Source: a virus
IMG/VR virus record: IMGVR_UViG_3300045141_000462
Coordinates: 1 to 42,363 of that record
Reading direction: 5' to 3' (one strand)
Length of the DNA stretch: 42,363 bases
Below the pieces are notes generated by a model. It was not told the origin of the DNA and did not search any database. It saw nothing but the letters and a program-made list of their open reading frames with translations. Positions 458 through 41,937 of this stretch are shown here, in pieces. A program made the position numbers and the translations under genes. Numbering within the stretch: the stretch's first letter is position 1; every line of letters starts with the position of its first letter.

Positions 458-1465
458 ATGCCATATAACACGATCGGAACAAGGGCCACACCCGGCACCG
501 GGCCGCTGATCCCGGAAGACGTTCAGAAAGAGATTGTGCAATCGGTCGAGCAAAAGTCAGCAGCACTGCGACTTATGCCGCATGTCACCATGAAAAGGGC
601 TCAGCAAAGAATCCCGGTGATGTCGCAGTTGCCAGTCGCATACTGGTTGACAGGTGCATCATTAGATGCACGTGATATCGGCATGAAACAGACCACTTCC
701 GTTGCTTGGGACAATGTATATTTAAACGCAGAGGAGATCGCGGTCATCGTCCCGATCAGCAAGAATTTGCTGGACGACATCGACTACGACTTCTGGACCC
801 AGGTCAAGCCCAAGGTCACCGAAGCGTTTGGCGTGGCCCTCGACGAGGCGATCTTCTTTGGCAACAACGCGCCATCAACCTTCCCCACCAGCATCGTGGC
901 CTCGGCGTCGGCCGCGGGCAACCTGATCATCGCCGGCGCCACCACCCCCGACTACCTCGCCGACGTCAACGCGGCCATGGCTGCGGTGGAAAGCGACGGC
1001 TTCGACATCACCGGGTTCTGGGCACGGCGCCAGGTCAAGTCCAAGCTCCGCGGCTTGCGGGCCACCACCAACGAGTTGCTGTGGTACCCGGACACGGCCC
1101 CGACCGCGTCTGCCGACACAGGCTCACTGTACGGCGAGCCGATCATCTTCAGTAACGCCGGCCTTAGCGGGTACGTCACGGGCGCGGCCAACTACTCGAT
1201 GATCATGGGCCAGTGGGACCAGAGCATGCTCGCGATTCGCGAGGATATCTCAATGGAACTTTTTGACACGGGCGTCATCACCGACAACGGCAGCCCGCCC
1301 GTCATCCAGTTCAACCTGCTCCAGCAGGACATGGTGGCCCTCCGCGTCATCGCCCGGTTTGCGTGGGCCGTGCCAAATCCCGTGAATCGCCAACAGCCGA
1401 CCAAAGCCTCCCGCTATCCGTTTGGTGTTGTGCAACAGAAGGCGGCCACGGGGGGAGAAGGTTGA
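458..1465 (+). CDS. Major capsid protein, HK97-like fold
   Basis: A 335-aa protein of the phage_capsid (HK97-like) type. The N-terminal arm is followed by a helix rich in E and Q, then the P-domain-like stretch around VPISKNLLDD and an acidic segment DEAIFFGNN typical of the family. The C-terminal part has the conserved pattern of a short acidic strand followed by DMVALRVIARFAWAVPNP, which corresponds to the usual end of these capsid proteins. The ATG at 458 follows AAGAGG. It comes after the scaffold-like gene. The first roughly 300 bases use more AT-rich codons (ATA, TTA, AGG) than the rest of the gene, which suggests a recombination join. Confidence 0.88.
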   Translation: MPYNTIGTRATPGTGPLIPEDVQKEIVQSVEQKSAALRLMPHVTMKRAQQRIPVMSQLPVAYWLTGASLDARDIGMKQTTSVAWDNVYLNAEEIAVIVPISKNLLDDIDYDFWTQVKPKVTEAFGVALDEAIFFGNNAPSTFPTSIVASASAAGNLIIAGATTPDYLADVNAAMAAVESDGFDITGFWARRQVKSKLRGLRATTNELLWYPDTAPTASADTGSLYGEPIIFSNAGLSGYVTGAANYSMIMGQWDQSMLAIREDISMELFDTGVITDNGSPPVIQFNLLQQDMVALRVIARFAWAVPNPVNRQQPTKASRYPFGVVQQKAATGGEG

Positions 1466-12560: not shown

Positions 12561-13013
12561 TCAGTATGGCATACGTTCGAGAATCGTGAGTCGGCCATCT
12601 TTGTTGTGTCCTGCTCGCTGCCAGCCTGCTTTCAAGAAACAGTACCCGGGGTTCGATGAGCGGATTTTGGCATCGGCGACGTAGGTGAAGTGGCGTTCGC
12701 CGGGCCAGCGTTGCCAGGCGAGCTCGTCGGCTTCGCGGATCAACTCGCTCGACAGGCCCGCTCCCTCGTTGCGGAAGACGGCGCAATTGATACCCAACTG
12801 GTGGTCGAGGCGCATGGCCGGGTCGCACTTGAGCCACACGAACAGCCCACGGCAGCACTGGCTGAGCAACACCATGGTCTCCCCAGCTGAGGTCACGTTG
12901 GTGTTGCCCGGTCGCCGCCAGCGTGCGCCTTTCTCCGCGGAGTAGTGGCGGCGATAGAGCGCGTACGCACGCGGATCGGTCCGTTTGACGGAGAGCCACG
13001 TGCCATCGATCAC
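12561..13013 (-). CDS. GNAT-fold protein, possibly Mom-like
   Basis: A 150-aa protein starting at GTG 13013, overlapping the integrase stop (GTGA). Its features are RRHYSAEKG near the N-terminus, the strand NCAVFRNEGAGLSSELI, and KIRSSNPGYCFLKAGW near the end, which matches the closing strand-loop of GNAT acyltransferases. The family recurs in actinobacterial phages. Phage Mu Mom, which modifies adenine, has a GNAT-derived fold, and a Mom-like role is one possibility. The canonical acetyl-CoA loop is not clear, so activity is unproven. It is cotranscribed with the integrase. Confidence 0.5.
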   Translation of the reverse strand: MIDGTWLSVKRTDPRAYALYRRHYSAEKGARWRRPGNTNVTSAGETMVLLSQCCRGLFVWLKCDPAMRLDHQLGINCAVFRNEGAGLSSELIREADELAWQRWPGERHFTYVADAKIRSSNPGYCFLKAGWQRAGHNKDGRLTILERMPY

Positions 13014-26286: not shown

Positions 26287-26309
26287 CAACACCCTCTAAC
26301 TGTTGGTGT

Positions 26310-26348
26310 CACCTACGTTTGTGCAAGCAAGCGTAGGTGGTCTGTTTG
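26310..26348 (+). terminator. Hairpin terminator behind terminase small subunit
   Basis: CACCTACGTTTG (26310-26321) pairs with CAAGCGTAGGTG (26328-26339), 12 bp with one T-G pair and loop TGCAAG, followed by the partly T-rich GTCTGTTTG. The remaining bases up to the HNH gene (26349-26485) show no other feature. Confidence 0.55.
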
Positions 26349-26485
26349 TAACGGCCACTCAGAGCAACCCTGCCTGCCCACGGAGCCGCGGGCGGTCACG
26401 CTCACCAGGACGAGGGCCACTCCCCCACGTGCCCCGATCCGTTCGCGAGCCCGGAATCCTATACCCCAAATCTGGCACACCGCAC

Positions 26486-26953
26486 ATGAGCGAAAACAGA
26501 ATTCAGAATCTCTGTTCTACGTGCAAGCAGTGGCACTACGGTGTGGTGTGTGCTCGCTGCAGGGCGCAGGACGAAACTCGGAGGTCGCAGGACCGGACGC
26601 GGTATCAGCGCACGACTCAGCACAGCATTGTGAGTCCGGAAATGTTTCACTGCAAGCCGGCGATGTTTCACGGAGATCAGGGGTGTTATCTGTGCGGTGG
26701 AGTGGTTGAGCCGACCACGGGACTCGGGCAGGACCATGTGATACCGCGCGTGTCTGGGGGCAGCGATGAGGCAGAGAATCTTCGTCCGTGTTGTCGGCAG
26801 TGCAATCGACTGAAGGGGCGCTGGACGCTGGAAGAGTTTCAGCGACGGTGTGAGAGCGTGGTCTACGACCTCCCCGATCGACATCTCGGGCGGCCCGTGT
26901 CGCCTGATCGTGTCTGGCTCTACGAGCGCATCGTCGTTCACATGGGGTGGTGA
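26486..26953 (+). CDS. HNH endonuclease next to terminase
   Basis: A 155-aa HNH protein. It has an N-terminal zinc knuckle (CSTCKQW and VCARCR) and the HNH core: CYLCGG (Cys67, Cys70), GQDHVIPRVSGG (Asp83, His84), ENLRPCCRQCNRLKG (Asn98, Cys103, Cys106, Asn107). HNH proteins beside terminases may support packaging or be homing endonucleases. The start is set at ATG 26486, since the earlier frame is not conserved-looking. It separates the two terminase genes. Confidence 0.82.
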   Translation: MSENRIQNLCSTCKQWHYGVVCARCRAQDETRRSQDRTRYQRTTQHSIVSPEMFHCKPAMFHGDQGCYLCGGVVEPTTGLGQDHVIPRVSGGSDEAENLRPCCRQCNRLKGRWTLEEFQRRCESVVYDLPDRHLGRPVSPDRVWLYERIVVHMGW

Positions 26954-27002: not shown

Positions 27003-27179
27003 ATGCCGGCGTTGAGAGCGTTGCTGGTGCTGTTGCACGATGTGGGTGCGCAGTTGGCGTCCTCGGGGAATCGAGTGGAGCACTACTGGGGGTTGCACCT
27101 GCTCGAGGACTGGCGTGGGCTGGAGCTGCTGGCTCACCGGGCTGAGACGGAGACGGTGGTGAAAGATGCCGCCGAGTAA
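27003..27179 (+). CDS. Small hypothetical protein before TerL
   Basis: A 58-aa helical protein (LRALLVLLHDVGAQL, then WGLHLLEDWRGLELLAH) overlapping the terminase start by 14 bases. It could be a small packaging accessory protein. No family recognised. Confidence 0.45.
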   Translation: MPALRALLVLLHDVGAQLASSGNRVEHYWGLHLLEDWRGLELLAHRAETETVVKDAAE

Positions 27180-29409
27180 CAAACTGAGTCAGGTGGGCAG
27201 GCCGGCGACGGTGGAGTGGGGCACCGAAGCGTCACCGGACGAGGCGCCCTATCAACCGCACGGGGCGGCTCTGGAATTGTTTCGAAGTCGGCGTCGTGAA
27301 GTGTTGCTGAGTGGGCCGGCCGGGACCGGAAAAAGCCGGGCCTGTTTAGAGAAATTGAACCTGATTGCGATGCAGAAACCGATCCGTGCGGCCATCGTCC
27401 GGAAGACCCGGAAAAGCCTGACCCAGAGTGCCATGGCGACCCTGGAAAACAAGGTATTGCCGCGGCCGAATCAGGTCCGATTTCACGAGGGAGATCAGGA
27501 ATATCGCTACCCCAGCGGGGCTCGAATTATGGTGGCCGGATTGGACGATCCGGAGAAAATCGGGTCCACGGAATTCGACGTCGTGTACTGCCTGGTTGGA
27601 GAAACCAGCGTCAGCAGTCCGTCAACGATTGAGCGAGGGTACGATCGTGTCTATACGGGACCACTGGTCACCATCCGTACGGCCCTCGGCCACGAGCTCA
27701 CCGGTACCCCGAATCACCCGGTACTGACCGATGAGGGATGGGTCGCGCTCGGCAGTTTGCGCAAGGGCCAGCACGTAGTGAGCTGCCTTGGCGCGCAGGG
27801 GGTGCCGTCGAGTGATCCACACGTAGACGACCAGCCAGCCACGATTGCCGAGATCGTACGTACGCTGGCGCTCCTGCCGACGTCCGTCACCGAACGGGTA
27901 GAAGGCATACGGATGGACTTCCACGGCGATGGGACCGACCGCCAGATCGATGTTGTACTTGCCGTCGGCGAGCTCAAGGAGCGGGGTGGCGCCCATCCTG
28001 GTCAGCGAACGCTGAAGCACGCGGGCTTCCGGGGAGACTTTGTGTGGCCGCAACTGGCGCACGGTGGCACGTTTGACGAGGGTAGAGTCCGAGGCCTGGC
28101 GACCACGGTTGAGTTCAGCCATGCGTTCCCCGAGCACGTGCATGCGCACTCGATTGGTCTCGGATTGCACCCAACGCAGACGCGCGGCGTCTCCGGCCGC
28201 TCTGAACTTCACGTACCACCCACTCGTGCGATCCCGAACGTGTCGCAGCGCCTGGCCTTCGCTGGGCGTACGCCATCGCAATCCGCGGCTGATGAACTCC
28301 CGTTTGAATCGACGATCGCTGATCCCGATCGAGAGAGCGATCGTGCTCAATCGGCCCTCGCCGGCCAGGTAACGCTGGATCGCATCATCGACGTCAGCAA
28401 CAGCTACGAGACTCGGGGCAGGCACGTTTACAATCTCCAGACAGCTTCGGGGTATTACTTCGCCAACTCAATAGTAACCCACAACTGTCAGGAAGCTACT
28501 GAGCTTGAGGAAGACGACTGGGCGATGTTGCTCCGCGGTCTCCGAAATGGGGTGCTCAGTTATCGGCAGATCATCGCCGATTGCAACCCGAGCTCACCCG
28601 ATCACTGGCTCAAACAAAGATGCAATGCGGGCGAGTGCGAGCTGCTCGAAAGCACCCACGAAGACAACCCCATGCTCTATCAGCAGGACGGGTGGACCGA
28701 CTTCGGCAGGGAGTACATCGCCACCCTCGACAGCCTGACCGGGTTCCTGTACCAGCGATTGAGGCTCGGGCAGTGGGTGGCGGCCGAGGGCATGTATTTC
28801 ACGGAATGGGACCCGTCTCTGCACGTCTGCCCGAGATTCGAGATCCCACCGGAATGGCCGCGGTGGCTGGCCGTCGACTACGGCTTCGCCGTGCCCTTCT
28901 GCTGCCTGTGGTTTGCCCGAGAGCCCGAGACCCGAAGGATCTTCGTCTACCGAGAGCTCTACGCGGCCGGCTTGCGGGACGAGCAGCAGGCCCAGGCAAT
29001 CGTGGCTCATAGTGGGCAGGAGCATCTGAATCTCAGGATCCTCGATCCGAGCATGTTCAACCTCAGGACGGAGCAGCAGCGGCCCTCGATCGCGGCCGTG
29101 TACTGGGCGCACGGGGTCAAGCCCGTTCACCCCGGCATGAACTCGAGGAAGCAGGGGTGGGCCATCGTCAGGCGAGCGCTGGCTCACGACTCGGGACCGC
29201 CGCGATTGCAGATCCTGAATGGCTGCGCTCCCAATCTGACGCGGACGTTGCCCAGCATGGTGGTGGATCCCCTGGATCCCGAGGACCTCGCCGATACGGT
29301 GCGGGGCACCAAGACCGAAGACCACGCGCCCGATGCCTTTCGCTACGGCCTGTGTGCCGAAGCGCAGCCGCCCCGGCCCACCGAGCCGATCGCCTTGAGG
29401 TTTGGTTAG
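27166..29409 (+). CDS. Terminase large subunit with intein
   Basis: A 747-aa precursor. The ATPase part has Walker A SGPAGTGKS (residues 49-57) and a Walker B that reads DVVY-CQEATEL once the intein (142-440) is removed. The C-terminal nuclease has WLAVDYGFAVP (Asp571 in the precursor), LRILDPSMF and DHAPDAFRYG. The spliced protein is 448 aa, normal for TerL. It cuts and pumps DNA into the prohead through the portal. Without splicing the Walker B site is destroyed, so the intein must splice for viable phage. Confidence 0.92.
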   Translation: MPPSNKLSQVGRPATVEWGTEASPDEAPYQPHGAALELFRSRRREVLLSGPAGTGKSRACLEKLNLIAMQKPIRAAIVRKTRKSLTQSAMATLENKVLPRPNQVRFHEGDQEYRYPSGARIMVAGLDDPEKIGSTEFDVVYCLVGETSVSSPSTIERGYDRVYTGPLVTIRTALGHELTGTPNHPVLTDEGWVALGSLRKGQHVVSCLGAQGVPSSDPHVDDQPATIAEIVRTLALLPTSVTERVEGIRMDFHGDGTDRQIDVVLAVGELKERGGAHPGQRTLKHAGFRGDFVWPQLAHGGTFDEGRVRGLATTVEFSHAFPEHVHAHSIGLGLHPTQTRGVSGRSELHVPPTRAIPNVSQRLAFAGRTPSQSAADELPFESTIADPDRESDRAQSALAGQVTLDRIIDVSNSYETRGRHVYNLQTASGYYFANSIVTHNCQEATELEEDDWAMLLRGLRNGVLSYRQIIADCNPSSPDHWLKQRCNAGECELLESTHEDNPMLYQQDGWTDFGREYIATLDSLTGFLYQRLRLGQWVAAEGMYFTEWDPSLHVCPRFEIPPEWPRWLAVDYGFAVPFCCLWFAREPETRRIFVYRELYAAGLRDEQQAQAIVAHSGQEHLNLRILDPSMFNLRTEQQRPSIAAVYWAHGVKPVHPGMNSRKQGWAIVRRALAHDSGPPRLQILNGCAPNLTRTLPSMVVDPLDPEDLADTVRGTKTEDHAPDAFRYGLCAEAQPPRPTEPIALRFG
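27589..28485 (+). mobile_element. Intein inside terminase Walker B
   Basis: A 299-residue in-frame element. It starts with CLVGETSVSS (Cys1, block A), then GTPNHPVLTDEGW (T-x-x-H block B). At the end it has HVYNLQTASGYYFANSIVTHN (block F and the HN of block G), with Cys as the +1 extein residue (CQEATEL). The splicing blocks occupy about the first 65 and last 40 residues. The middle (about residues 66-258) shows no LAGLIDADG or HNH motif in the sense frame; instead its opposite strand is open for an endonuclease. Confidence 0.9.
27622..28425 (-). CDS. Antisense HTH plus PD-(D/E)XK-like endonuclease nested in the intein
   Basis: A 267-codon frame on the minus strand, wholly inside the intein, from GTG 28425. 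Residues 12-50 look like a helix-turn-helix (AIQRYLAGEGRLSTIALSIG, SDRRFKREF). Residues 130-205 have the VSR/PD-(D/E)XK order: SPEARVLQRSL (Glu133), KYNIDLAVGPIAVEVHP (Asp160, Glu169, His171), then a basic stretch and GWLVVYVWI. This matches homing endonucleases of the VSR/EDxHD kind. The last 60 codons overlap the sense splicing block B. A shadow frame is possible, but the recognisable domain order argues for a real gene. Confidence 0.6.
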   Translation of the reverse strand: MPAPSLVAVADVDDAIQRYLAGEGRLSTIALSIGISDRRFKREFISRGLRWRTPSEGQALRHVRDRTSGWYVKFRAAGDAARLRWVQSETNRVRMHVLGERMAELNRGRQASDSTLVKRATVRQLRPHKVSPEARVLQRSLTRMGATPLLELADGKYNIDLAVGPIAVEVHPYAFYPFGDGRRQERQRTYDLGNRGWLVVYVWITRRHPLRAKAAHYVLALAQTAERDPSLIGQYRVIRGTGELVAEGRTDGDQWSRIDTIVPSLNR

Positions 29410-29411
29410 GG

Positions 29412-29537
29412 ATGAGGCCGCGACGCTTCGGACGCCAGTGGGAGTGGCCCGACCGATGGGTGCTCCTGTTCGACGCTCTCGGCTGGCGCGGCTGCTACTC
29501 GTACTGGAGCCACCACCCGACCTGGCGAGATGCCTGA
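29412..29537 (+). CDS. Small basic hypothetical protein
   Basis: A 41-aa protein rich in Trp and Arg (RPRRFGRQWEWPDRWVLL, CYSYWSHHPTWRD). It starts two bases after the TerL stop and ends in a TGATG overlap with the portal start, which supports it being translated. Function unknown. Confidence 0.45.
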   Translation: MRPRRFGRQWEWPDRWVLLFDALGWRGCYSYWSHHPTWRDA

Positions 29538-31660
29538 TGGCCACTCTGACGAAAACCGGCTCGTCGAACGGGTGGGGCAAGTCCGCGTCCGCGGAAGAGA
29601 CCATGCAGCAACTCACGTGCGAGCTCGCCGACCAGTTGCAGCGCGACTTCCACGATCGCGACGTCCTGTATCGCGACATCGACGCCACCCTGTTTTCGAA
29701 TTTCCCGATCGAGATCCCCGAGGCGTACAGAAAAACGGCGGTGGAGGTCAGAGCTCCACTGGCCCTGCACATCGCCCAGAACGTGGCCGCCGCCCTGAGT
29801 GTCAACGCCCCGACCGTGGGGTTCCGACCCGTCGGCTTCGGCGATGTCTACCAGGAGAACTCGACGCGCCGGGAGCGCTTCTTCGAAGCCTCGTGGCAGC
29901 GCCAGGAACAGGAAGCCCGACGGCAGCTGAGCCGCCTCTTCATGTGGAGCCTCGCCGTTAAAGGGGAAGGCATCTTAAAAACCTTAGAGCGGAGCGCCGC
30001 GGCGTGGAGCACGTACGCGCTCGACTCCGAGGCGTACCAGAAAGAGCTCGAGCAGGACGGCCTCGATCAGCACGCCCAGGACATGGCGTACGACAAGCAC
30101 ACCGAGAACCTGAAGCTCGGGCTGCCGTACCCGATCGCCACCACCGACGTCCCACCCGAATCTTTCTATTACACCCGCAACGAGAACGGCTACACGTCGG
30201 TGGTCGAGATCAAGGACGTGCCGTACCTCGAAGCCCTCGAGCGGTTCGGCGCCGAGCTCGACTCCTCGGGCAACGTCCGTGCTCCCTCAAAAGACCGCAG
30301 CTTCGATCCGCAGGCGGCCCAGCTCGCGCGCCCCGAGTGGAGCCACATCATGAAGACGGCCGGCTCCACCACTTTGAAATGCATCGAGGCCTGGGACGAG
30401 CACGTGCAGGTGGTGTGCCTGTCGGGTCCCAACCAGATCGCGAAGGGCAACGACCAGTCCACCCTGTGCAAGGTCACCCAGCACAGTTACGGGGATCCCC
30501 ACCTGCACACCCTCAGAGGCCCGTACTTCCACGCCCTCGGCATCACTACCGCGTCGAGACTGCCTGAGCACGCCGGCCTCAGCGTCCTGTACGGCTACCT
30601 GCAGCTCTTCCGCCTGATCGACTCTCTGCTCACCATGCAGGGCAATAGCGCGTACCTGACCGGCTTCCCGGCCTGGAAGCAGACCACCAACCCGAACCAG
30701 ATCCCCGGTTTGCCGTACGGGGCCAGCGGCCAGGAGCAGGCCGTCCAGGACCGCCTCGAGCCGGGCAAGCTCTACCCCTTCGACGTCACCCCCGTCGACC
30801 AGCCCCAGTCCGGCCAGGACGCGTCGAAGCTGCTCACCAACGTGCAACAGTTGGTCGAACGGGCTATGCCGGCCGCGTTCAGTGGCGCGGTGGGTGCCGA
30901 CCAGTCGGGCTACGCCCTCAACCAGGCCGCCTACCTCGCCGGGCTCGCCTTTAACCCGATCGTGAGTAACGCCGAGGTCGCGCTCGCCGAGCGCACTGGC
31001 TTCGAGTCCTGGCTGATCGAGAACCGCATCGCCGAGTCGGTCTATGCCTGGGGCGAACAGCCCGGCAAAACGGGTGGCCGAGGCGCCGGCCAGACCAAGG
31101 GCTCGTGGCTGCGCATGGACCCCGCCGACCTCGAGGGCATTCACAGGTACACGGTCCGCCTCAGCCCGAGTACGCCGAGCAACGAGATCATCCAGATCAG
31201 ATCCATCGGCGAGAAGATGCAGCTCAAGCTGATCACCTACGAGGACGCGGTCACCGAGGCGGGCGGCAACCCCGACGAGGTCGAACGGAGTTGGCTGTTG
31301 CACGATCTCAAGCAGAGCCCCGAGATCCAGCAGCAGTTGAAGGACGCCGTCTTCCAGAAACTCGGCACCATCCAGGCCAAACGCGTCAACGCCGCCGGCA
31401 ACCCCAGCCCGGCCGAGATGGCCGGGCTGCAGACCGGCGCGGTCACCAACGTGCCCGGTACGCCCGGCACCCCGCCGTCGGGACCCATGCCCGGCGGCAT
31501 GCCCCCGAACCCGGTGCCGTCGCCCGGAGCGGGCCTGCCTCTCGCGCCACCCCCTCCCGGCGGTGGTGGGCTGGCCATGCCTCCCGGCGGCGCGCCGGCT
31601 GGCAACGTCGTGGTGCCCAATCCGCCGCCCAACATGCTGCCCATGGGACCGGGGCGTTAG
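29537..31660 (+). CDS. Portal protein
   Basis: A 707-aa protein directly after TerL. Features are an N-terminal helical region with FHDRDVLYRDID and the conserved-looking IAQNVAAALSVNAPTVGF, the middle beta/helix wing, and LSVLYGYLQLFRLIDSLLTMQGNSAYL, a long helix as found in the portal crown stem. The C-terminal 100 residues are a Pro/Gly-rich disordered tail. It forms the dodecameric ring for DNA entry and exit. Order TerL-portal and size fit well; no Walker or nuclease motif is present. The start overlaps the small ORF before it. Confidence 0.78.
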   Translation: MATLTKTGSSNGWGKSASAEETMQQLTCELADQLQRDFHDRDVLYRDIDATLFSNFPIEIPEAYRKTAVEVRAPLALHIAQNVAAALSVNAPTVGFRPVGFGDVYQENSTRRERFFEASWQRQEQEARRQLSRLFMWSLAVKGEGILKTLERSAAAWSTYALDSEAYQKELEQDGLDQHAQDMAYDKHTENLKLGLPYPIATTDVPPESFYYTRNENGYTSVVEIKDVPYLEALERFGAELDSSGNVRAPSKDRSFDPQAAQLARPEWSHIMKTAGSTTLKCIEAWDEHVQVVCLSGPNQIAKGNDQSTLCKVTQHSYGDPHLHTLRGPYFHALGITTASRLPEHAGLSVLYGYLQLFRLIDSLLTMQGNSAYLTGFPAWKQTTNPNQIPGLPYGASGQEQAVQDRLEPGKLYPFDVTPVDQPQSGQDASKLLTNVQQLVERAMPAAFSGAVGADQSGYALNQAAYLAGLAFNPIVSNAEVALAERTGFESWLIENRIAESVYAWGEQPGKTGGRGAGQTKGSWLRMDPADLEGIHRYTVRLSPSTPSNEIIQIRSIGEKMQLKLITYEDAVTEAGGNPDEVERSWLLHDLKQSPEIQQQLKDAVFQKLGTIQAKRVNAAGNPSPAEMAGLQTGAVTNVPGTPGTPPSGPMPGGMPPNPVPSPGAGLPLAPPPPGGGGLAMPPGGAPAGNVVVPNPPPNMLPMGPGR

Positions 31661-32346: not shown

Positions 32347-33954
32347 ATGGCGACCTTTACCGTTCCCATCACCGGTCCTGACGGCGGCAAGGGCACCATC
32401 ACCGTCAATGCGTCCGACGCGGCCGCGGCGGTCGACAACGCCAAGCAGGGCGGCAACACCCCCACCGGTAGCGCCACCCTCGTCGGCGGCAGCCCCAGCG
32501 CTCCGTCCACTCCGGGCAACAACAACCCCTCGAACAACAACAACAGCGGCGGTACTGGCGCCAACATCGCCGCCGGGCAGTTATTGCTGAGCCAGGCCCA
32601 GAACGCGGCCACGCAGGCCTACAACAACGCCAAACTGGCCCTCGACACCGACCAGGAGGCGTACCAGAAAGCCGCTCAGGCCGCCGCCACCCTGATCGCC
32701 CAGGCCGGTGTCACCGGCACCTACAACGGCATGCCTACTCAGGCAGCCATCAAGCAGGCTGCCGACATCGCCCAGCAGCAGGCGACCACGATGTCGAACT
32801 ACGCCCAGCAGTTCGGCGTGTGGGGTACGCCGACCTCGGGGCAGCAGACTCTCGCCGCCCAGCAGCAAGGCATCGCTCAGGCTGCCCAGGCTGCCCAGTT
32901 GACGGGCTGGTACACCCCGTACACGTATACCCCGCCGACCGCTGTGCCGGGTGCGGCAACGCCCGGTGCGACAACTCCGGGCCAGGCCACTCCGGCCCAG
33001 GCCGCTCCGCTCACCCAGGACAGTTACCTCCAGGCGCGTACTGCCCAGTTGCAGCAGATCGGCCAGAGCGCCGCGCAGGCACAGCAGACTGCCCAATCGG
33101 AATGGGCACAGGGCTACGCCCAGAGCGGCAACGTCGCTTACGGCATGCCGACCGGCCTGAGCACCGCCGGCGCACCCGCAACCGGAGCAGCCTGGCAGGC
33201 CCCCACCTCCGACCAGTGGATGACCGCGCGCGTGCCGCAATTGCAATCCAACGGCATGGGCGTCACCCAGGCGACGCAGACCGCCCAGGCCGAGTGGGCA
33301 CAGGGCTCCGCGCAGTCAGGCAACGTGGCGTATGGCATGCCGTCCGGGATCAGTTTCACCGCGCCCGCGCCAGCAGCAACCACGCCGGCTCCGACGGGTG
33401 CCCCCGTAGACCAGGCGAGCGGGCAGCCGAGCGCGAGCACCCCACCGGGTGTGCCGCCGGGGTGGACCCCCGGTCAGCCGGTGCAGACCCTGGCCGCGTG
33501 GCAGGCGCAGCAGACCGCCGCTCAGAACTACCTGACCATGATGGCTGGACTCAGAGGTCCGGCCGATTACGCGAAATATCAGCAGGTTCTTGGAAGCACC
33601 CCCGGCGGCATGAAGGATCTCGTGGCGGCCGCGGCTGGCCAGTACATCCCCGGTGGCGGGGCGACCACCGGCGTGCAGCCCACCGCGGTCAACATGAGCA
33701 ACTTCCTCGGTAGCGCCACTGGCGGCCAGCCCACCGATCCCTCCGGCCAGGCCGCCCTGAACACGCTGGTGGCGCCAAACCAACTTGCGCCGCAAACCTG
33801 GAATTCGTTAACGCCTTCGCAGCAGCAGCTCCTCCTCGGCCAGTGGGAATCTCAGGGCTACACCAAGGACGACGCCCAGGCACTGTTCAACCAGAGTTTG
33901 CCCAAGTACGCCCCGCAGACGGGCATCGGCGCGGGAACGTTCAAGCTCCAGTAG
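32347..33954 (+). CDS. Ala/Gln-rich internal virion protein with duplicated block
   Basis: A 535-aa low-complexity protein with strong AGGAGG upstream. Residues 1-50 form a small beta domain (GPDGGKGTITVNAS). The rest is helical and rich in Ala, Gln and Thr. Residues 230-273 and 294-337 are duplicates with a 64-residue period (AQSEWAQG, AQSGNVAYGMP in both). Such sequences are typical of podovirus internal or ejected core proteins. Position before the giant polyvalent protein supports this. No enzyme motif is seen. Confidence 0.6.
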   Translation: MATFTVPITGPDGGKGTITVNASDAAAAVDNAKQGGNTPTGSATLVGGSPSAPSTPGNNNPSNNNNSGGTGANIAAGQLLLSQAQNAATQAYNNAKLALDTDQEAYQKAAQAAATLIAQAGVTGTYNGMPTQAAIKQAADIAQQQATTMSNYAQQFGVWGTPTSGQQTLAAQQQGIAQAAQAAQLTGWYTPYTYTPPTAVPGAATPGATTPGQATPAQAAPLTQDSYLQARTAQLQQIGQSAAQAQQTAQSEWAQGYAQSGNVAYGMPTGLSTAGAPATGAAWQAPTSDQWMTARVPQLQSNGMGVTQATQTAQAEWAQGSAQSGNVAYGMPSGISFTAPAPAATTPAPTGAPVDQASGQPSASTPPGVPPGWTPGQPVQTLAAWQAQQTAAQNYLTMMAGLRGPADYAKYQQVLGSTPGGMKDLVAAAAGQYIPGGGATTGVQPTAVNMSNFLGSATGGQPTDPSGQAALNTLVAPNQLAPQTWNSLTPSQQQLLLGQWESQGYTKDDAQALFNQSLPKYAPQTGIGAGTFKLQ

Positions 33955-33960
33955 AACAAC

Positions 33961-36900
33961 ATGCCCGATTTACCGGACGTCCCGGAAGACCAGTACCGCC
34001 AGTACGAGGCCGACCAGTTCCAGCAGCAGGCCAGCCGTCGGATCGACGGCCTGAGTTTCGAGAATGCGGCGAATTCACGCATTGCCACACTGGAACGTCC
34101 ACCGTCCAGCGATAGCCTGACCAATCCACTGGGCACCGGGAATATCACCCCATCGCAAGCTCCACCTCCGGAACCCCCGGTCGAGGCTCCCGTCCCGCCT
34201 CCGCCCTCCCCAGCCCCCATCGCTCCCCCTGAGCCCTCGCCGCCACCGCCGGACCAACCTCCTCCAGCGGATGTGGTGGGGCCACCTCCACCACCGGTTG
34301 TGACGGCACCCCAACCGGTGGTGGCACCGCCTCCACCGACTCCTCCGACTGACTGGTTCGGGAGTGCGCTGAACGCGGCAGCCGGCGCTGGCGCCAACGT
34401 CCAGACCTTTGCCAACGACCTGACGTCACGCGTGGCCAGCGGCGGGCAGGACATCATGGGCCACGCCATCAACGCGGTGGCCCAGGCCGGCGGCGACGTG
34501 CAGCAATTCGCCAGCACGTTCACTCCACCTCCTCCGACTCCGACTCCGCCTGTGGCCGCGACGGCACTGAGTACGTCGGGGTCGCAGGCGGGGACGGGCG
34601 ACCTGCAGGCCTACGCGCAGCAGATGGCCTCGAAGTACGGCATCGACCCGCGGGTGTTCGTCGCCCAGATCCAGCAGGAGTCCGGCTTCAATCCGTCGGC
34701 CAGGAGTGGCGCGGGTGCCCAGGGCATCGCCCAGTTCATGCCGGCCACGGCTGCCGGCGTGGGCCTCGACCCTTCTGATCCCTACGCCAGCCTGGAGGCG
34801 GCGGCCCGGATGGACGCCCAGAACCTCCAGAAGTACGGCGGCGACTGGTCGAAGACGCTGGCTGCCTATAACGCTGGGCCGGGCAACGTCGACAAGTACG
34901 GCGGGGTGCCGCCATTCCAGGAGACCCAGACCTACGTCAGGAACATCCTCGGCGCGGCTAAGAGTACGGGGCAGCAGGCGCTGGAAGGGGTGGGCAACGC
35001 GATCGGCGGCGCGGCCTCGGCTCTCGGAACCCAGGCGCGCAACGCGATCAACACCGTCAGCCAGTTCGGGGACGCCCAGCTCTCGAGCGATGAGGCCTAT
35101 TCAGCATGCGGCCCGGCCGCGGCTGTGCGCTTCGCCCAGATGTTCGGGCGCAACCCGACCCTGCGCGAGGCGACCGACCTGGCGAAAACCGTGGGCTGGA
35201 CGGTGGCCCAGGGCATGGCCGGCCTCGGTTCAGAAAAAGCGCTGATGGACAAGATGGGCGTGCCGACGACGATGGTCGGTCCCGATATCCAGCGCCTGGC
35301 GGCCGAAGCCCAGACGGGCAACCCGGTGACCATCAGCACCCAGGGCCACTACTTCACGGCCGATGGGTATGACCCCAATTCGGGCGCGTTCCACGTCGGC
35401 CGCAGCGGCCTCGACCTGAAGGGCGGCAGCGAGTGGATGACCCCGGCCCAGATGTCCGCGCTGATGGGACCCGTCCAGGGCGGCCTGCTGGCCGACAACC
35501 CACAGGTGCCGGCGCCCAGCACAGCCGACCAGGGCTCGAACCCGCGGGGTTTTCTCGATCGCGCGAAGGACGCTATCGGCGGTGCCTTCAGCGCGGTGGG
35601 CACCGCCGTGCAGCAGGCTGTCCCGTCGTCGCTCGGGACGGCCGACCATGACGTCAATCGTCTGGACAACGCGGTGCAGCAAGCCTCCAGCCTCAGTGCC
35701 GCGGCGGACACCATGGGCATCATGGAGCCCGTGGCCAATCCGCCGACCCCGTCGGACTCGCTGACCAACCCCCTCGGTACGGGCAACCTCGCGCCGCCGC
35801 CGAGTCCGGTCGATCGGTTGAAGAGCGCGTTCGGGGATTTCATCGATCAGATGCAGGGTCAGGGCCAGGGCGGTGTCATGACGGCCGCTCAACAGCCCAC
35901 GCCCAGCGACACGCTGACGAACCCCACGCGCTCCACGGTGATGCCCGCGGATCGAAGTCTTCAGCCATCGACGCCCGGTCTCACCGAGGGGCCAATTCCT
36001 CCAGGCATCCCCATCGTGAGCGGCGCGGGCAACCTCGCCGCCAACGCGATCAACACCGTTGGCGATGCGGTCAAGGCCAACATTCAGAACGATCCCAGTC
36101 TGCTGGCGCAGGTGGTGCGCGCCGTGGCTGGCGGGGAAAGCTCGACGGCGATTCAGCGTGATCTGATGGCCAAGTACGGCACCTGGATTCCCGACGACCG
36201 CTTCACGCCAGAGGACCGAGATCGAGCTGGCAGTCTGGCGATGCTCGTCGGCGGTGCGGAGATGGGCGGCGCAGGCGATGCTGTCGATGCCCTGGGCAAC
36301 AAGATCAAGCCGCTCGAGGAGCAAGCTGCCCAGTTGGCCGGCCGTACCCTCGAGGGAGGCGCGGGATTGCTGGGGCTCGGCCAACCAGCGGCATCGCCCG
36401 CAGCAGCAGCGAGTGCTTCCGCGACGCCGAGCCTCGAGGACTTCCTGCGGACGGCGCCGCGTGCGGATGACGTGGTGCCGACCCAGACGGTCGATCAGCT
36501 TGCCCAGAATCTGCGCACACGCACGGGACCGCCCGGCATCAGCATCGAGCGCGGCTACATGGGTATCCCTGGCGGCCCCGAGGTCGCCGACACCGGTACG
36601 CGGTACGTGGTCTCGCGCAATGCCCAGGGCGAGCCGGTCGGCGTGCTCGAGATGCATATCGATCAACCGAGTGGGCAGCCCGGGCTGCTGCAGGTCGCGG
36701 TCGATCCAGCCTATCAGCGGCAGGGCATCGGCACCGCGCTGTACAAGGCGGCGCAGGACGCCGGGTTCGATGTCGAGGCGGCCAGTGGCGCGGGCGGCTA
36801 CACCGACGCGGGCGCTCGCTTCGCCTACGCACGCCGTTACCCGTCGGCAGACAGCGCCCAGGCCGCGGGCGTGCATCCACTCACCACCGTGGATCCGGTC

Positions 36901-39900
36901 GCGGCCCAGGCTGCTCATCCGTCCAACAGCGCCATGCCGCCCGAGTCCGCCGTGGCCAACCAGGCCGTCCATCAGGTTGGCGAGACGTCCGCTGCAGCCG
37001 GCACGCCCCTCGATCGAATCAACGCCATGTACGCGGCGCCGAAGGGCGGCGACTCGATCCCCCAGCGCCTGGCAAACGCCCGTACGGCGATCGTGCGGGC
37101 ATTGACCGATCGCGGCGTCGACATCGCCCAGGCGCAGCAGGCCTACGCTAAAGCCCTTGGCCGTCCGCTGAACGCGGACGAGATGATGTACGAGCTGAGC
37201 CGCCTGCAGCCGGGACCGGCGGCCGAGACGCGCCTGCAGCAGGGCCTCGCGCCAGCCATTCGCTCGGTCGGCGACGACTACCAGGCGTTGCGGAATTACG
37301 TCACCGCCCGGTCGAACATCCAGGTGGCCGACGGGGTCGGACAGGACCTCGTGCGGAACCTGGCCGATACCCAGGTGCCATCCAACCTGACAGACAAAGT
37401 CAACAGCGCGCAGACGAGCCTGCGCGGGCGTCAGGCAGCGCTCGAGCGTTTGCAGGCCGACAGTCTGCCAGACGACGCCAGGGTGGCCGCCGCGCAGCGC
37501 AGCGTCACCTCCGCCCAGCGCACCCTGACGCGCGCCCAGTCAGCGGTCGAGACCGCGCGGCAGGCCGTGCTCGACAGTGCCAGCCGCAGCGGCGCCGAGG
37601 CCACGGCCAACCGCATGTTCTCGGGCGGGGTCAACAAGGCCGACAGCGAGGCGGCCATCCAGCAGATCCAGCAGGAGCTCGGCCCAGAGCGGTTCGCCAG
37701 GGTGCAGGCCGCCGCCGATCAGGTCTCGGAGTACGGCCGCACCCTGCGCCAGCGGCTGGTCGACTCGGGCGTGCTCAGTGCCGACCAGGCCGACGAGATG
37801 GCCAGCAAGTACCCCGACTGGGTCAAGACCCGCATCCTGCAGCACATGGACGACGCGAGCGGTGGTGGCCAGGCGAGCGGCACGGGGATCGGGCTCGGCT
37901 CCCGCGACGTCCATGCCTACACCCAGGCCGGCACGGTCGCCGCGCGGGAGGACCCGCTGGCCTCGATGGTCGCCTACACCCACCAGGTCGAGAAAATGGC
38001 GATGAAGAACGACACCTTCAACGCCGCGGTCAAACTGGACCAGGCCAGTCCCAGCCCGCAGCTCCGCCCCGTGACAGGCGACTTCCACCCGACCAGCGAC
38101 CAGGCGACCGTGCAGGGCTTCATCAATGGCCAGAAGCAACGCTTCGTCACCGACAACAAGGCCCTGGGGCAGGCAATCGAGGGCGCCCACCAGACCTCGC
38201 TGCCGAAGTTTATGACTGCCTGGGCGAACGTGTTCCGCAACGTCGCCGCCAGTCGCAACCCCGCGTTTGTCGCCGGGCACGCGAGCTTCACCATCCCGCA
38301 ATACATTTTCCGCCAGACCGCGCTCGAGGGCGGCCCGCAAGCCCTGCCGCGCGTGTTGAGCGAACTGGTCAAGGGGTACGGGGACGTCTTCCAGGGGATG
38401 CTGCAGGGCAAAACGCTGGCCGAGGCTGGCGAAGGCACCCAGCAGTTGCTGCTGGGCGGCGGCGGCCAGTTCGGAGCGCTCAGCGGCAGCAGCCAGGACG
38501 CGGCCAGAATGGTCGAGCAGATGCGCGGCATCCCGATCAACTCCGCCGCCGGCGTGCGGACCCTGATGAAGGACCTGATCACCCTCAAGCCGGTCGAGAA
38601 TCTCGTCAACCGTGTCGACTACGGCCCGCGCGTGGCGGCCATGCGCCTGGCCGAACAGCGCGGCATGAACCCGGTGCAGGCGATTGTCGCGGGACGGGAC
38701 GCGACGATCGACTTCAACCGCGGCGGCACGGCGACGCGCCTGCTGTCGCAGATGATTCCGTTCCTGAATGTCGGCGTGCAGGGTCCGCTCCAGGTGGCGC
38801 GTACCTTCCAGAGCAACCCGCGCGCGGCGATCTTCACGGCCGGCTCGTTGATCGGCATGCCCACCGTCGCGGCCGAGATCTGGAACAACGCCGACCCGCA
38901 GCGCGCGAAGGACTACGCCGACGTGCCCAAATACATCAAGGACCAGGGCATCGTGATCATGCTCCCGACCGAAGCGCCCGTCGACGCTCGAGGCGACCGC
39001 CACCCGCAGTTTGCCTGGATCAACACCCGCAACTGGTCCCCGTTCGTGTCGATGGCGCGCGAAGCGACCGACCGCGCCATGGGCAAGGACACCGGTAGCT
39101 GGCAGGACGCTGCCGGTTCGATGCTGGCCGGTGCTCTGCCGGTGCAGGCCACTGGCCCGGCGGACCTGGCCCAGAAGATGGCGCTCAGCCTGCCCGGGGT
39201 GCAGACCGCCGCTCAGCTCGCGCTGAACAAGGATTTTTACCGTAACCGCGACATCGTCACCAACCGCGCCGACGTGGCCGCCAGCCCGACGGCCAAGTGG
39301 CTGACTCCCGCCGCGCAGGGACTGGCCGACGTGGTGGCGCCCGGCTCGACGGCGCGGCCCTCGGCGATCGACTTCGCCATCCGCAACATCGGCGCCGGCA
39401 CCGCGACCGCCGGGCTGAGTGCTACCGACATGGCGCTCAAGAGCGCCGGCTACGGCCCGGCCCAGAAGCCCAACCAGGCTGCCGCGGGGCCGTCGACCAT
39501 CCCGGTGCTGGGCAGTGTGGTCGGCCGTTTCGTGCGCGGCAACACCGGCGAGTCGCTGCAACAGGCGCGTCAGGCAGCGCTCACCCCGTCGGCCACCCAG
39601 CTCTTGCGCGACGCCGGGGTGCAGTACACCCCCACCCCGGTGCCGAGCACGGTGCAGGGCATCCCCCTGCAACTGGACGAGGAGACGCAACTGCAGGAGA
39701 CCGCCAACCGCTATGTCGACGACTTCATCCACCGCACCGCTCAGACGGCAGGCTGGCAGCGAGCCACGCCGGCCCAGCGCCAGACCATGATCGAACAGGC
39801 AGTCAACCTGGGCCACCAGCGTGCCGAAGGCGAGATCCTGCGCGCCATTCCGGCCGAGGAGCGTCGTGCCCGTCTGGCTCAGGCCTTACCCCAGCGCGGC

Positions 39901-39939
39901 GCGGCGTCAGCGGCCGCACAGGCGTGGATGAACCCCTAA
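33961..39939 (+). CDS. Giant polyvalent virion protein (SLT, C39-like, GNAT, LPD regions)
   Basis: A 1992-aa protein. Order: Pro-rich N-terminus (66-130); SLT transglycosylase (about 216-330; IQQESGFNPSA with Glu240, GIAQFMPATA, AAYNAGPGNVDKYGG); C39-like peptidase (about 375-490; SACGPAAAV with Cys383, QGHYFTADGYD with His463 and Asp471); GNAT acetyltransferase (about 856-965; QRQGIG at 919-924); then long helices and a polyvalent-protein type region near 1430-1620 (RNPAFVAGHASFTIPQYIFR, TIDFNRGGTATRLLSQ). It is probably ejected with the DNA, piercing the wall and then acting on host targets. The motif S-D-S/T-L-T-N-P recurs three times. Confidence 0.82.
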   Translation: MPDLPDVPEDQYRQYEADQFQQQASRRIDGLSFENAANSRIATLERPPSSDSLTNPLGTGNITPSQAPPPEPPVEAPVPPPPSPAPIAPPEPSPPPPDQPPPADVVGPPPPPVVTAPQPVVAPPPPTPPTDWFGSALNAAAGAGANVQTFANDLTSRVASGGQDIMGHAINAVAQAGGDVQQFASTFTPPPPTPTPPVAATALSTSGSQAGTGDLQAYAQQMASKYGIDPRVFVAQIQQESGFNPSARSGAGAQGIAQFMPATAAGVGLDPSDPYASLEAAARMDAQNLQKYGGDWSKTLAAYNAGPGNVDKYGGVPPFQETQTYVRNILGAAKSTGQQALEGVGNAIGGAASALGTQARNAINTVSQFGDAQLSSDEAYSACGPAAAVRFAQMFGRNPTLREATDLAKTVGWTVAQGMAGLGSEKALMDKMGVPTTMVGPDIQRLAAEAQTGNPVTISTQGHYFTADGYDPNSGAFHVGRSGLDLKGGSEWMTPAQMSALMGPVQGGLLADNPQVPAPSTADQGSNPRGFLDRAKDAIGGAFSAVGTAVQQAVPSSLGTADHDVNRLDNAVQQASSLSAAADTMGIMEPVANPPTPSDSLTNPLGTGNLAPPPSPVDRLKSAFGDFIDQMQGQGQGGVMTAAQQPTPSDTLTNPTRSTVMPADRSLQPSTPGLTEGPIPPGIPIVSGAGNLAANAINTVGDAVKANIQNDPSLLAQVVRAVAGGESSTAIQRDLMAKYGTWIPDDRFTPEDRDRAGSLAMLVGGAEMGGAGDAVDALGNKIKPLEEQAAQLAGRTLEGGAGLLGLGQPAASPAAAASASATPSLEDFLRTAPRADDVVPTQTVDQLAQNLRTRTGPPGISIERGYMGIPGGPEVADTGTRYVVSRNAQGEPVGVLEMHIDQPSGQPGLLQVAVDPAYQRQGIGTALYKAAQDAGFDVEAASGAGGYTDAGARFAYARRYPSADSAQAAGVHPLTTVDPVAAQAAHPSNSAMPPESAVANQAVHQVGETSAAAGTPLDRINAMYAAPKGGDSIPQRLANARTAIVRALTDRGVDIAQAQQAYAKALGRPLNADEMMYELSRLQPGPAAETRLQQGLAPAIRSVGDDYQALRNYVTARSNIQVADGVGQDLVRNLADTQVPSNLTDKVNSAQTSLRGRQAALERLQADSLPDDARVAAAQRSVTSAQRTLTRAQSAVETARQAVLDSASRSGAEATANRMFSGGVNKADSEAAIQQIQQELGPERFARVQAAADQVSEYGRTLRQRLVDSGVLSADQADEMASKYPDWVKTRILQHMDDASGGGQASGTGIGLGSRDVHAYTQAGTVAAREDPLASMVAYTHQVEKMAMKNDTFNAAVKLDQASPSPQLRPVTGDFHPTSDQATVQGFINGQKQRFVTDNKALGQAIEGAHQTSLPKFMTAWANVFRNVAASRNPAFVAGHASFTIPQYIFRQTALEGGPQALPRVLSELVKGYGDVFQGMLQGKTLAEAGEGTQQLLLGGGGQFGALSGSSQDAARMVEQMRGIPINSAAGVRTLMKDLITLKPVENLVNRVDYGPRVAAMRLAEQRGMNPVQAIVAGRDATIDFNRGGTATRLLSQMIPFLNVGVQGPLQVARTFQSNPRAAIFTAGSLIGMPTVAAEIWNNADPQRAKDYADVPKYIKDQGIVIMLPTEAPVDARGDRHPQFAWINTRNWSPFVSMAREATDRAMGKDTGSWQDAAGSMLAGALPVQATGPADLAQKMALSLPGVQTAAQLALNKDFYRNRDIVTNRADVAASPTAKWLTPAAQGLADVVAPGSTARPSAIDFAIRNIGAGTATAGLSATDMALKSAGYGPAQKPNQAAAGPSTIPVLGSVVGRFVRGNTGESLQQARQAALTPSATQLLRDAGVQYTPTPVPSTVQGIPLQLDEETQLQETANRYVDDFIHRTAQTAGWQRATPAQRQTMIEQAVNLGHQRAEGEILRAIPAEERRARLAQALPQRGAASAAAQAWMNP

Positions 39940-39948
39940 GGAGCCCGT

Positions 39949-41937
39949 ATGCCGCCAGCAGCCCAGCCCGCCACCTCGTCTTCCAGCCCCGCTGATCCGT
40001 TCGACCCGTACACGACGCCGATCAGTCCGCTCATCGCGCACCTGACGGAGCAGCACGGGTCAGTGCTGGGCACGCCCTATAACACCAATCCGACCATCCC
40101 GAACCCCAGCGCGTTGCCCGGTGAGTCGAAGGACATCCCCAATCCGAACCCGACGTATCGCTATGTCTTTGCGGACGGCACCGTGCTGGAAGCGACCTCG
40201 ACCGGCGACGTCTCCACGCTGAATGAGAAGACGCCGACCACCACCCAGACCCACCCCAACGTCACGGGCGCGGACGGTTCGGTGTACGTCTGGGATCCCA
40301 AAGCCATCGACCCGACCACCCAGAAGCCGGGTACCTACACGAAGGCGCCCGGCCTGCCGTCGGGCGAGGCGAAGCCGACCGAGGGAGCCAAGCGCGCAGC
40401 GGTGGAGGGCGGCCGCAACGTCGAGCAGACGTACTCGGGCGGCCAGTGGGTCACCACCTCGGTCGGCAGCAACGCGACGCCAGGCGCCGCCGTCGAGGGC
40501 GCCACGCGCGACATCGTCGACAGCGGCCGTTACGTCACCCAGACCTACCAGAACGGGCAGTGGGTCACCACGAAGGTGGGCGACAACGCGATCCCCGGCG
40601 CCCCGAAGGCGGGCGACAAGCGGCCCTCGGTCGACGGTGGCCGCTACGTCGAGCAAACCTACGACGGCACCAGTTGGCGCACCACCTCGGTAGGTGACTC
40701 GGCCATCCCCGGCGGAGGTACGGAAGGGCAGAAGCGGCAGGTGGTCGAGAACGGCCGCAACGTCACCCAGACGTTCCAGAATGGCGCATGGACGACCACC
40801 GGCATCGGGGAGTCGGCCCTGCCTGGCGCGGCCAAAGTGGGCGACACACGGCAGTCCATCGAGAATGGCCGCAACGTCGAGCAAACCTATGACGGCACGA
40901 CCTGGCGGACCACCGGTATCGGCGCCAATGCTCTGCCTGGCGCGGCCAACGAAGGCGACAAGCGCTCGAACGTCCAGGGTGGTTTTACCGTGGGCGAGGT
41001 GTACCGCAACGGTCAGTGGATCGTCGACCCGAGCGTGCCGCCGACCCGCTTCACGCCCCAGGACCCGACCGTCATCAGCGCGCCGTCCACTCAGGCCAAC
41101 ATCGCCACGATGCAGAACGGCCAGATCAGCACCCAGACCAATCCGAACTTCATGCCGACCACCACGGCCGAGGTGGCGCAACGGGTGACTCAACTGCAAA
41201 GCGCGGCGCAGCAGCAGCGCGACGCCCTGGCAGACAAGCAGCGGTCGGGGGCGATTACCGCCGACCAGGCCGCGCAGCAATTCGATAGTTGGTGGTCATC
41301 TAACGTCGAGCCGCAGAAAGCCGTGCTGGACGCGGCCCAGCGCACGGCCCAGACGACTGAGCAGCAGAAAGCCGAAGAGGCCAACCGCGCCAACTACGCC
41401 ACTGCCATGGGCGCCGGCCAGAACGCGGTGCAGGCCCAGCAGGCACTGATGCCGTACATGGTTGGCCCCGGCTTCGGCGCCGCGCTGAACAACATCCAGA
41501 GCGCGTATGCCAGCGGCAAGGCGCCGGGCAACATCGACCTGGGTTCTGCGGTGACGTTCCAGCTCCCCGACATGCAGGCCCTGGCGACTCAAGCCACCAA
41601 CCAGGCACTGGCGCATATCTCGCCGACGGCGGCCCAGAACATGGGCCAGGCGACGGGTCAACAGGCCAATCCCCAGATGGCCCAGATGCCCCAGGGCATG
41701 GACATCAACCAGCAACTGAACCGCACCAACTACACCCCGACCACGACCGTGGCCCCGGATGGAACGGTCACCGTCAGCCACCAGAATCAGGCCCCGCCGC
41801 AACCGACCCCGCAGCCCCAGGTCCAGCAGCACCCCTTCTACGCCGGCCTGCAGCAGGGGTACGGGGCCGCGCCGCAACAGGATTTCCGCGGTCTCGCGCA
41901 GGGAGCCGTCATGCCCCCGTACCAACCGAGTTTCTGA
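39949..41937 (+). CDS. Virion protein with six 38-aa tandem repeats
   Basis: A 662-aa protein with AAGGAG before ATG 39949. Residues 1-150 are Pro/Thr-rich, with a TYRYVFADGTVLEATSTGDV strand pair. Residues 155-370 are six tandem repeats of about 38 aa, with pattern GR-N/Y-V-x-QT-Y/F then GxW-x-TT-x-V/I-G and A-L/I-PG. The C-terminal half is helical and Gln/Ala-rich, ending in a disordered Pro/Gln segment. It sits between the giant ejected protein and the scaffold. It is probably structural or ejected; no enzymatic motif is seen. Confidence 0.65.
   Translation: MPPAAQPATSSSSPADPFDPYTTPISPLIAHLTEQHGSVLGTPYNTNPTIPNPSALPGESKDIPNPNPTYRYVFADGTVLEATSTGDVSTLNEKTPTTTQTHPNVTGADGSVYVWDPKAIDPTTQKPGTYTKAPGLPSGEAKPTEGAKRAAVEGGRNVEQTYSGGQWVTTSVGSNATPGAAVEGATRDIVDSGRYVTQTYQNGQWVTTKVGDNAIPGAPKAGDKRPSVDGGRYVEQTYDGTSWRTTSVGDSAIPGGGTEGQKRQVVENGRNVTQTFQNGAWTTTGIGESALPGAAKVGDTRQSIENGRNVEQTYDGTTWRTTGIGANALPGAANEGDKRSNVQGGFTVGEVYRNGQWIVDPSVPPTRFTPQDPTVISAPSTQANIATMQNGQISTQTNPNFMPTTTAEVAQRVTQLQSAAQQQRDALADKQRSGAITADQAAQQFDSWWSSNVEPQKAVLDAAQRTAQTTEQQKAEEANRANYATAMGAGQNAVQAQQALMPYMVGPGFGAALNNIQSAYASGKAPGNIDLGSAVTFQLPDMQALATQATNQALAHISPTAAQNMGQATGQQANPQMAQMPQGMDINQQLNRTNYTPTTTVAPDGTVTVSHQNQAPPQPTPQPQVQQHPFYAGLQQGYGAAPQQDFRGLAQGAVMPPYQPSF
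40411..41055 (+). repeat. Six tandem 114-bp coding repeats
   Basis: Repeat starts at 40411, 40525, 40639, 40753, 40867 and 40981, each exactly 114 bases (38 codons); the sixth is diverged and partial. The constant positions are GGCCGC/T at the start, CAG-ACC/ACG, TGG-x-ACC and the PGA codons. The exact period shows duplication by slippage or recombination with later drift at codon level. Confidence 0.9.

Follow-up and report, generated by a model that had tools for sequence, protein, structure and literature searches.

The window analyzed here, the whole 42,363 nucleotides of the IMG/VR virus record IMGVR_UViG_3300045141_000462, encodes a protein of 1992 amino acids (aa) and raises the question of what a virus would do with wall-lytic, peptidase and acetyltransferase domains joined in a single chain. 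This architecture had been proposed by a sequence-only reading and was confirmed: the open reading frame (ORF) was intact (33961..39939, + strand, ATG start, no internal stop), and the domains were recovered by Pfam profiles, fold comparison and motifs. The giant protein (hereafter LPP) harbored SLT, C39-like, GNAT and LPD38 domains within its 1992 aa, as expected of a polyvalent protein. As judged from domain content, gene order and analogy with known ejected proteins, LPP is probably an ejected internal virion protein in which a wall-cutting head is followed by protein-modifying cargo and then by a chassis.

Predicted glycan and peptide cutters in the N-terminal third

LPP began with a conserved N-terminal segment that recurred in relatives (aa 1-44, LPDVPEDQYRQYEADQF..., 33961..34092, + strand as for all domains of LPP), where L4, P5 and D6 were the sole invariant columns across 45 N-terminal regions. 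The SLT lytic transglycosylase domain (aa 218-322, 34612..34926) was detected with PF01464 at E 1.5e-23 (83 bits against a cut-off of 21.3, Pfam search of the full protein, as for the other Pfam scores of LPP unless stated), and its presumed catalytic Glu240 lies in a column with conservation of 90% or more across 45 rows. The next domain, a C39-like papain-fold peptidase (aa 366-520, 35056..35520), was delimited by profile, alignment and fold. Its Gln368, Cys383 and His463 were invariant columns in a 41-row alignment (A1 positions Q29, C44 and H124; residue number = position + 339).

A profile search had been suggested as a check of the GNAT and C39-like calls. The GNAT call passed its cut-off, while Peptidase_C39_2 (PF13529, aa 377-478) stayed below its cut-off of 24 in the window, with 20.7 bits for the full protein and 23.1 bits for the N-terminal part alone, and exceeded it in the relatives L126 (35.4 bits) and L054 (24.9 bits). 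The AlphaFold model of the domain (pLDDT 77.3) matched papain-fold enzymes with Z up to 11.8. The best match was the pseudomurein endoisopeptidase PeiR, a methanogen-virus wall enzyme (Z 11.8 over 130 residues, root-mean-square deviation 3.0, 14% identity). C39 domains were on a par with it (ComA, Z 11.0), and further papain-fold enzymes ranked below these. Sequence-profile searches of the PDB returned nothing useful for the C39-like domain, nor for the portal-like protein and the ART-like domain described below. Despite the profile score below cut-off, the C39-like call is supported by relatives, fold and catalytic residues.

Relatives of the locus were gathered through LPP itself (52 viral loci), through a portal-like gene upstream of it (80 loci) and through the GNAT domain (seven loci). 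The portal-like-anchored sample, chosen independently of the giant protein, was used for peptidase-slot counts because a search with LPP itself favours C39 carriers. A peptidase-bearing giant protein was in reach in 48 of these 80 loci, a count that depends on having a peptidase match. The other 32 were dropped as having no peptidase-bearing ORF downstream; many contigs ended soon past the anchor, and the downstream ORFs (of 180 aa or more) in these loci were at most 609 aa long. In a check for circularity, no listed downstream ORF of at least 720 aa was without a C39-like, M23 or NlpC/P60 domain. A second set was built by clustering 78 complete giant ORFs at 90% identity into 61 clusters (L016, with its 5' end cut, was left out).

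Exactly one peptidase occupied the slot in each of the 48 proteins: C39-like in 41, M23 in five and NlpC/P60 in two, none having two (37, 5 and 2 of 44 once near-duplicates were removed). Pfam placed M23 far over cut-off in L062, L068, L086 and L133 (E 9.7e-17 to 6.7e-16 or better) and NLPC_P60 in L101 and L135 (E 7.3e-18 and 4e-19); the fifth M23, in L094, was based on a custom profile and the Pfam tally of N-terminal regions. This tally, over 45 regions, gave C39_2 in 36 (E <= 0.01), M23 in five and NLPC_P60 in two for the peptide side, and SLT in 24, Glucosaminidase in seven and Phage_lysozyme2 in five (weak) for the glycan side. The peptidase slot followed the wall-glycan enzyme directly, and the C39-like domain was far more conserved than the cargo region. 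A predicted glycan cutter joined to a predicted peptide cutter is the rule among LPP relatives, and the combination of domains is in this respect less unusual than the sequence-only reading had stated. A gene of a Chloroflexota metagenome-assembled genome (L054, 9239-10978) paired Glucosaminidase (E 1.2e-24) with a C39-like domain (E 3.4e-5) and had no giant tail, which fits the wall-cutter reading. This gene sits among genes that are not phage-like in appearance.

M23 and NlpC/P60 are classic peptidoglycan-peptide hydrolases. For NlpC/P60 this activity is also described in PMC7824862. Where unrelated enzymes are interchanged in a fixed position, a shared substrate is the best explanation, and since the slot is alternately M23 or NlpC/P60 (7/48 relatives), the most plausible role of the C39-like domain is to cut wall peptides, rather than to act as a self-cleaving or host-directed protease. 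The proposal that SLT and C39-like domains would help entry was supported by this exchange. The family may then serve as a natural experiment on the essentials of an ejected phage protein, in which wall-glycan and wall-peptide functions are kept while unrelated enzymes are swapped, and C39-like domains would form a conserved candidate class of wall-cleaving peptidases.

An autoprotease that cuts LPP at repeated linkers and frees the cargo would share the papain/C39 fold with invariant Cys and His, and metallopeptidases of polyvalent proteins are thought to process their own protein (PMC5512222). Three copies of a linker motif, P-x-x-S-D-x-L-T-N-P(-LGTGN), do flank modules in LPP (aa 47-62, PPSSDSLTNPLGTGN, 34099..34146; aa 595-610, 35743..35790; aa 646-655, 35896..35925), their DNA copies differing in codons. 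However, the motif occurred in 13 of the 61 clusters. Just 12 of the 56 C39-type clusters carried it, it was also present in L101, which is of NlpC type and lacks a C39 domain, and the slot itself can hold wall hydrolases. Self-cleavage at the linker, quite unlikely on these grounds, was dropped. A scan of 9,274 ORFs placed the motif in just one outside giant proteins and their fragments, namely in a neighbour gene of L040. A conserved stretch, S-P-V-D-R-L-K-S-A-F-G-D-F-I-D (35800-35856, aa ~614-632), recurred slightly changed in L061, L101 and L133.

The structural neighbours of the C39-like domain also included papain-like toxin domains of contact-dependent inhibition, as an injected effector cleaving host proteins might. 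Such a role appears highly improbable, given that wall hydrolases substitute for the domain, that it lies directly after the glycan enzyme and that it is conserved well above the cargo region.

Proposed cargo of the middle part

The GNAT domain (aa 845-965, 36493..36855) was recognised by profile, motif and fold. Acetyltransf_1 (PF00583) matched aa 879-938 with 35.9 bits against a cut-off of 20.7, and the acetyl-CoA motif, which in GNATs follows the rule (Q/R)xxGx(G/A), read QRQGIG at aa 919-924. Nearly all fold matches were GNATs, but with modest scores (Foldseek E of at least 5e-3, Z of at most 6.9), as only about aa 844-936 were well modelled; a profile search of the PDB returned one GNAT-containing enzyme at E 0.0017.

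GNAT was carried by the window and L002, L026, L038, L061 and L140, always within the giant protein. PF00583 run over 41 whole records, a set deliberately containing known carriers, found five GNAT-bearing records with the domain in the giant ORF each time, and one further weak match (E 0.006) in another ORF. The window and L002 differed by too few changes in the GNAT domain to measure selection. A recent exchange of GNAT DNA between them is conceivable: codon changes were fewer than elsewhere, but 27 of 2000 shuffles were equal or better and other stretches were just as quiet. More distant matches, L141 and L142, encoded a 697-aa protein in which a GNAT-like stretch followed an apparent HExxH peptidase (as read), an arrangement in line with GNATs of polyvalent proteins. 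The GNAT-bearing ORF of L026 (9608-17377) also displayed DUF7178 in its middle region (E 7.5e-8).

A weak ART-PolyVal match in L081 (Pfam, E 0.013) gave the lead to a second cargo type. Six giant proteins (L016, L020, L040, L050, L052 and L081) shared a domain with a YHGT/FHGT...GPGYY/GPGHY signature. PF18760 (ART-PolyVal), run over 40 records that again included known carriers by design, matched five of these six at E 6e-6 to 3e-3; as none exceeded the 31.2-bit cut-off, the domain is labelled "ART-like" on the basis of motif and mutual homology.

Recognised cargo was GNAT in five of the 61 clusters, ART-like in five, both in none and neither in 51; these proportions are not field frequencies, as the set mixes loci found via LPP, the portal-like gene and GNAT. 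By peptidase, C39-type clusters comprised 46 without recognised cargo, five with GNAT and five with ART-like domains; four M23 clusters and one NlpC/P60 cluster were without cargo. Cargo, where recognised, invariably came after the peptidase and was followed by a C-terminal part of 729-1277 aa. The predicted GNAT is thus an optional cargo, and ART-like domains occupy the same region in other giant proteins. Because ART-like domains surfaced only via one weak match, further types of cargo may have escaped notice. In the variable regions of 30 giant proteins, Pfam (E <= 0.01) detected LPD38 in five proteins, GNAT in two and DUF7178 in one, with no further named enzyme, and ten further variable regions (E <= 0.1) gave GNAT in L140 besides the weak ART lead in L081.

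The presence of GNAT in only five of 61 clusters, together with its poorly modelled C-terminal half, could suggest a degenerate, inactive passenger left by recombination. This was considered unlikely, as the domain occurred in five otherwise different giant proteins and the acetyl-CoA motif (QRQGIG/A) was intact in five of five aligned copies with 39-97% identity to that of the window. A carried effector, as first proposed, is the preferred reading. Of the earlier claim of a GNAT modifying a host or phage component after ejection, the part on carried-in cargo was supported by the alternation with the ART-like domain. The carried protein modifier, like the wall enzymes, would then be swapped among relatives, and the host target of an early-injected acetyltransferase would be directly testable with a small, well-bounded domain.

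Proposed chassis and entry mechanism

The long C-terminal region harbored LPD38 (PF18857, aa 1650-1838, 38908..39474), which passed its cut-off of 27 narrowly in LPP (28.2 bits) and was stronger in relatives (64.4 bits in L007, 77.2 bits in L029). The resemblance of the C-terminus to polyvalent proteins, noted earlier from its sequence, was borne out by this match. Relatives of the LPD38 region sit within giant proteins of Bacillus phage Pascal and Vibrio phage 1.211, both of podovirus type.

Parts of the giant protein appeared to be exchanged independently of the genes around it. L057, L058 and L059 encoded portal-like proteins 96-99% identical to that of the window together with giant proteins only about 30% identical outside the N-terminal third. 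Their long DNA match to the window stopped at base 33984, 24 nucleotides inside the LPP gene, past which the shared DNA was reduced to shorter stretches of 69-76% identity. LPP and three relatives that differ elsewhere, L016, L017 and L019, had the block at aa 646-791 (35896..36333) in common at about 85% identity, a mosaic joint by sequence comparison.

Length and wall domains might also fit the tape measure of a phage with a long tail, as tape measure proteins often carry SLT, M23 or NlpC. The annotated phage collection contained 891 records matching LPP, none covering 80% of it, and the best matches were SLT-containing tape measure proteins. Nevertheless, the 40 matches listed were restricted to the SLT region, some extending slightly past it, and covered 5-9% of the query. 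The LPP gene is located between portal-like and capsid genes, its C-terminal region matches podovirus-type giant proteins, and its relatives range from 1273 to 2989 aa among the 61 clusters, whereas a tape measure should follow tail length. A tape measure role was accordingly judged very unlikely, and no tape-measure-like gene was recognised in the window by profile or reading.

As an ejected protein, LPP would be carried in the virion and would breach the wall with its N-terminal third, its enzymes being active: the SLT lytic transglycosylase would cut glycan strands and the C39-like peptidase would cut peptide stems or cross-links. At the site of entry the head would open both bond types; the rest of the chain, together with its cargo, would follow inward, by analogy with T7 gp16. 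The middle part would be an optional effector, GNAT acetylating a host (or incoming phage) protein once cytoplasmic; phage Rac, which acts on RNA polymerase, is a precedent for acetylation of a host protein (PMC7824862). The long LPD38-containing region may act as a conserved chassis in packaging, in ejection or in the passage of DNA.

Several points weigh against this reading. No LPP segment attained a hydropathy of 1.6, which leaves LPP with no obvious membrane helix. No candidate for the third catalytic Asp/Asn of the C39-like domain could be assigned with confidence from the alignment, and its fold, which matched double-glycine peptidases equally well and lay close to papain-like toxins, cannot fix a substrate by itself. 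The C39-like domain of L055 was present with no glycan enzyme recognised by reading, so that glycan and peptide cutters do not always occur as a pair. The C-terminal half of GNAT was poorly modelled, with all fold Z below 7, and the portal-like gene owes its identity to position alone.

A wider proposal, more tentative and somewhat short of evenly balanced, is that the LPP family would constitute a standardised vehicle, with a two-socket head (a glycan cutter, and a C39-like, M23 or NlpC/P60 peptide cutter), an effector bay for GNAT or ART-like domains and a shared chassis. Host wall chemistry would determine the head, and either the defences or the transcription machinery of the host would determine the bay. 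Under this proposal, C39-like domains would represent a new family of entry peptidoglycan peptidases.

Known counterparts and gene neighbourhood

DarB-like giant proteins of Bcep22-like podoviruses (JC1 gp69 and BcepIL02 gp70, presumably homologues) follow a similar plan, with a lytic transglycosylase-like domain towards the N-terminus, central enzymes and LPD38 close to the C-terminus. BcepIL02 gp70, annotated as "DarB-like antirestriction protein" and encoded by a very large gene at the corresponding position among virion-associated genes, is about 4,670 aa long against 1992 aa for LPP. Neither phage was among the 25 listed of 29 LPD38-region matches, similarity to LPP being only distant. 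In JC1 gp69, the domain table of PMC9144972 places lytic transglycosylase-like (80-192), YtxK (1537-1783), LPD3 (3170-3270) and LPD38 (4195-4401) domains and lists no wall peptidase, whereas LPP has the C39-like domain; the cargo of DarB-like proteins is methylase- and helicase-like, that of LPP a GNAT.

Polyvalent proteins, like LPP, bring many unlike domains together in one injected protein, and lysozyme, GNAT, ART and LPD38 domains were all named among them in 2017 (Iyer et al., PMC5512222). Their phage GNAT family typically has an ART neighbour, whereas GNAT and ART-like domains are alternatives in the LPP family. Their peptidases are described as zincin, assemblin-like, DD and LonC, and the main text of PMC5512222 nowhere uses the words C39, papain, thiol or NlpC. 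The description of the LPP combination as unusual was not supported as worded: Bcep22-like podoviruses already provide a lytic transglycosylase joined to effectors and LPD38 (PMC9144972), and polyvalent proteins with a GNAT had been reported (PMC5512222). What is new is a C39-like domain as the presumed entry peptidase, the replacement of this domain by other wall peptidases and the alternation of GNAT with ART-like domains.

T7 gp16 is an ejection protein with an N-terminal transglycosylase, as proposed for LPP, and was among the PDB sequence matches (7eyb_I), the alignment spanning only aa 220-346 of LPP. Its transglycosylase stays in the periplasm while its C-terminal part reaches the membrane and cytoplasm (PMC8954989). 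A wall peptidase, an effector domain and LPD38, all present in LPP, are not described for it in the part of PMC8954989 drawn on. Acetyltransferases also occur as separate genes, namely cobavirus pc40, a lone GNAT gene beside internal virion proteins (PMC6775973), and BcepIL02 gp65, among virion genes, whereas the GNAT of LPP is fused into a putative ejection protein. Searches of the open-licence literature turned up no paper joining lytic transglycosylase, C39 and phage virion, nor any on an acetyltransferase in a podovirus ejection protein.

The gene order around LPP was terminase, portal-like gene, two smaller genes, LPP, a 662-aa gene and capsid. The terminase, portal-like, 535-aa, LPP, 662-aa and capsid genes are on the + strand. 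L055, a phage contig in an Acidobacteria metagenome-assembled genome, supported the proposed role with a matching order (terL, portal-like gene, one or two genes, LPP, one gene, capsid), having one gene fewer between the portal-like and giant genes. For this soil phage, gene order and LPD38 relatives suggest a short-tailed type, a putative podovirus. The first and last 101 bases of the record were identical at 99 of 101 positions, which fits a circular or terminally redundant genome. Only three loci were matched in genome contigs (two Chloroflexota metagenome-assembled genomes and L055), too few to assign a host, and the annotated phage collection held no near match to the first 25 kb of the window.

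The 752-aa gene at 29402..31660 is a probable portal. It has 80 viral relatives and no match in PHROGs, Pfam, PDB sequences or annotated phages (none at E <= 1 in the last). Directly before LPP, a 535-aa gene (32347..33954) kept beside it in relatives possibly encodes a further ejection protein. The HK97-type major capsid protein (458..1465; PF05065, E 5e-27; phrog_10, E 1.5e-43) was 42% identical to Arthrobacter phage capsids, yet the portal-like protein had no relative in that same collection. The terminase large subunit (27166..29409) was interrupted by an intein at 27588-28489 (Pfam Intein_splicing, E 6.8e-7, 29.7 bits, below the cut-off of 35.8). The intein DNA was absent from relatives such as L057-L059, where the terminase flanks were nearly contiguous. 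Upstream of this gene, an HNH endonuclease gene (26303-26953) displayed 34 to 86% identity among matched relatives.

A large serine recombinase (13010-14857, - strand; Resolvase, E 4e-23) suggests that the phage is probably temperate. ARAGORN called a tRNA-like gene at 5400-5480 (- strand) whose anticodon has four bases (cagt); the call overlies a coding repeat and is probably spurious. The 662-aa gene downstream of LPP (39949..41937) contained a 114-bp tandem repeat, present in 2.6 copies at 40367-40662.

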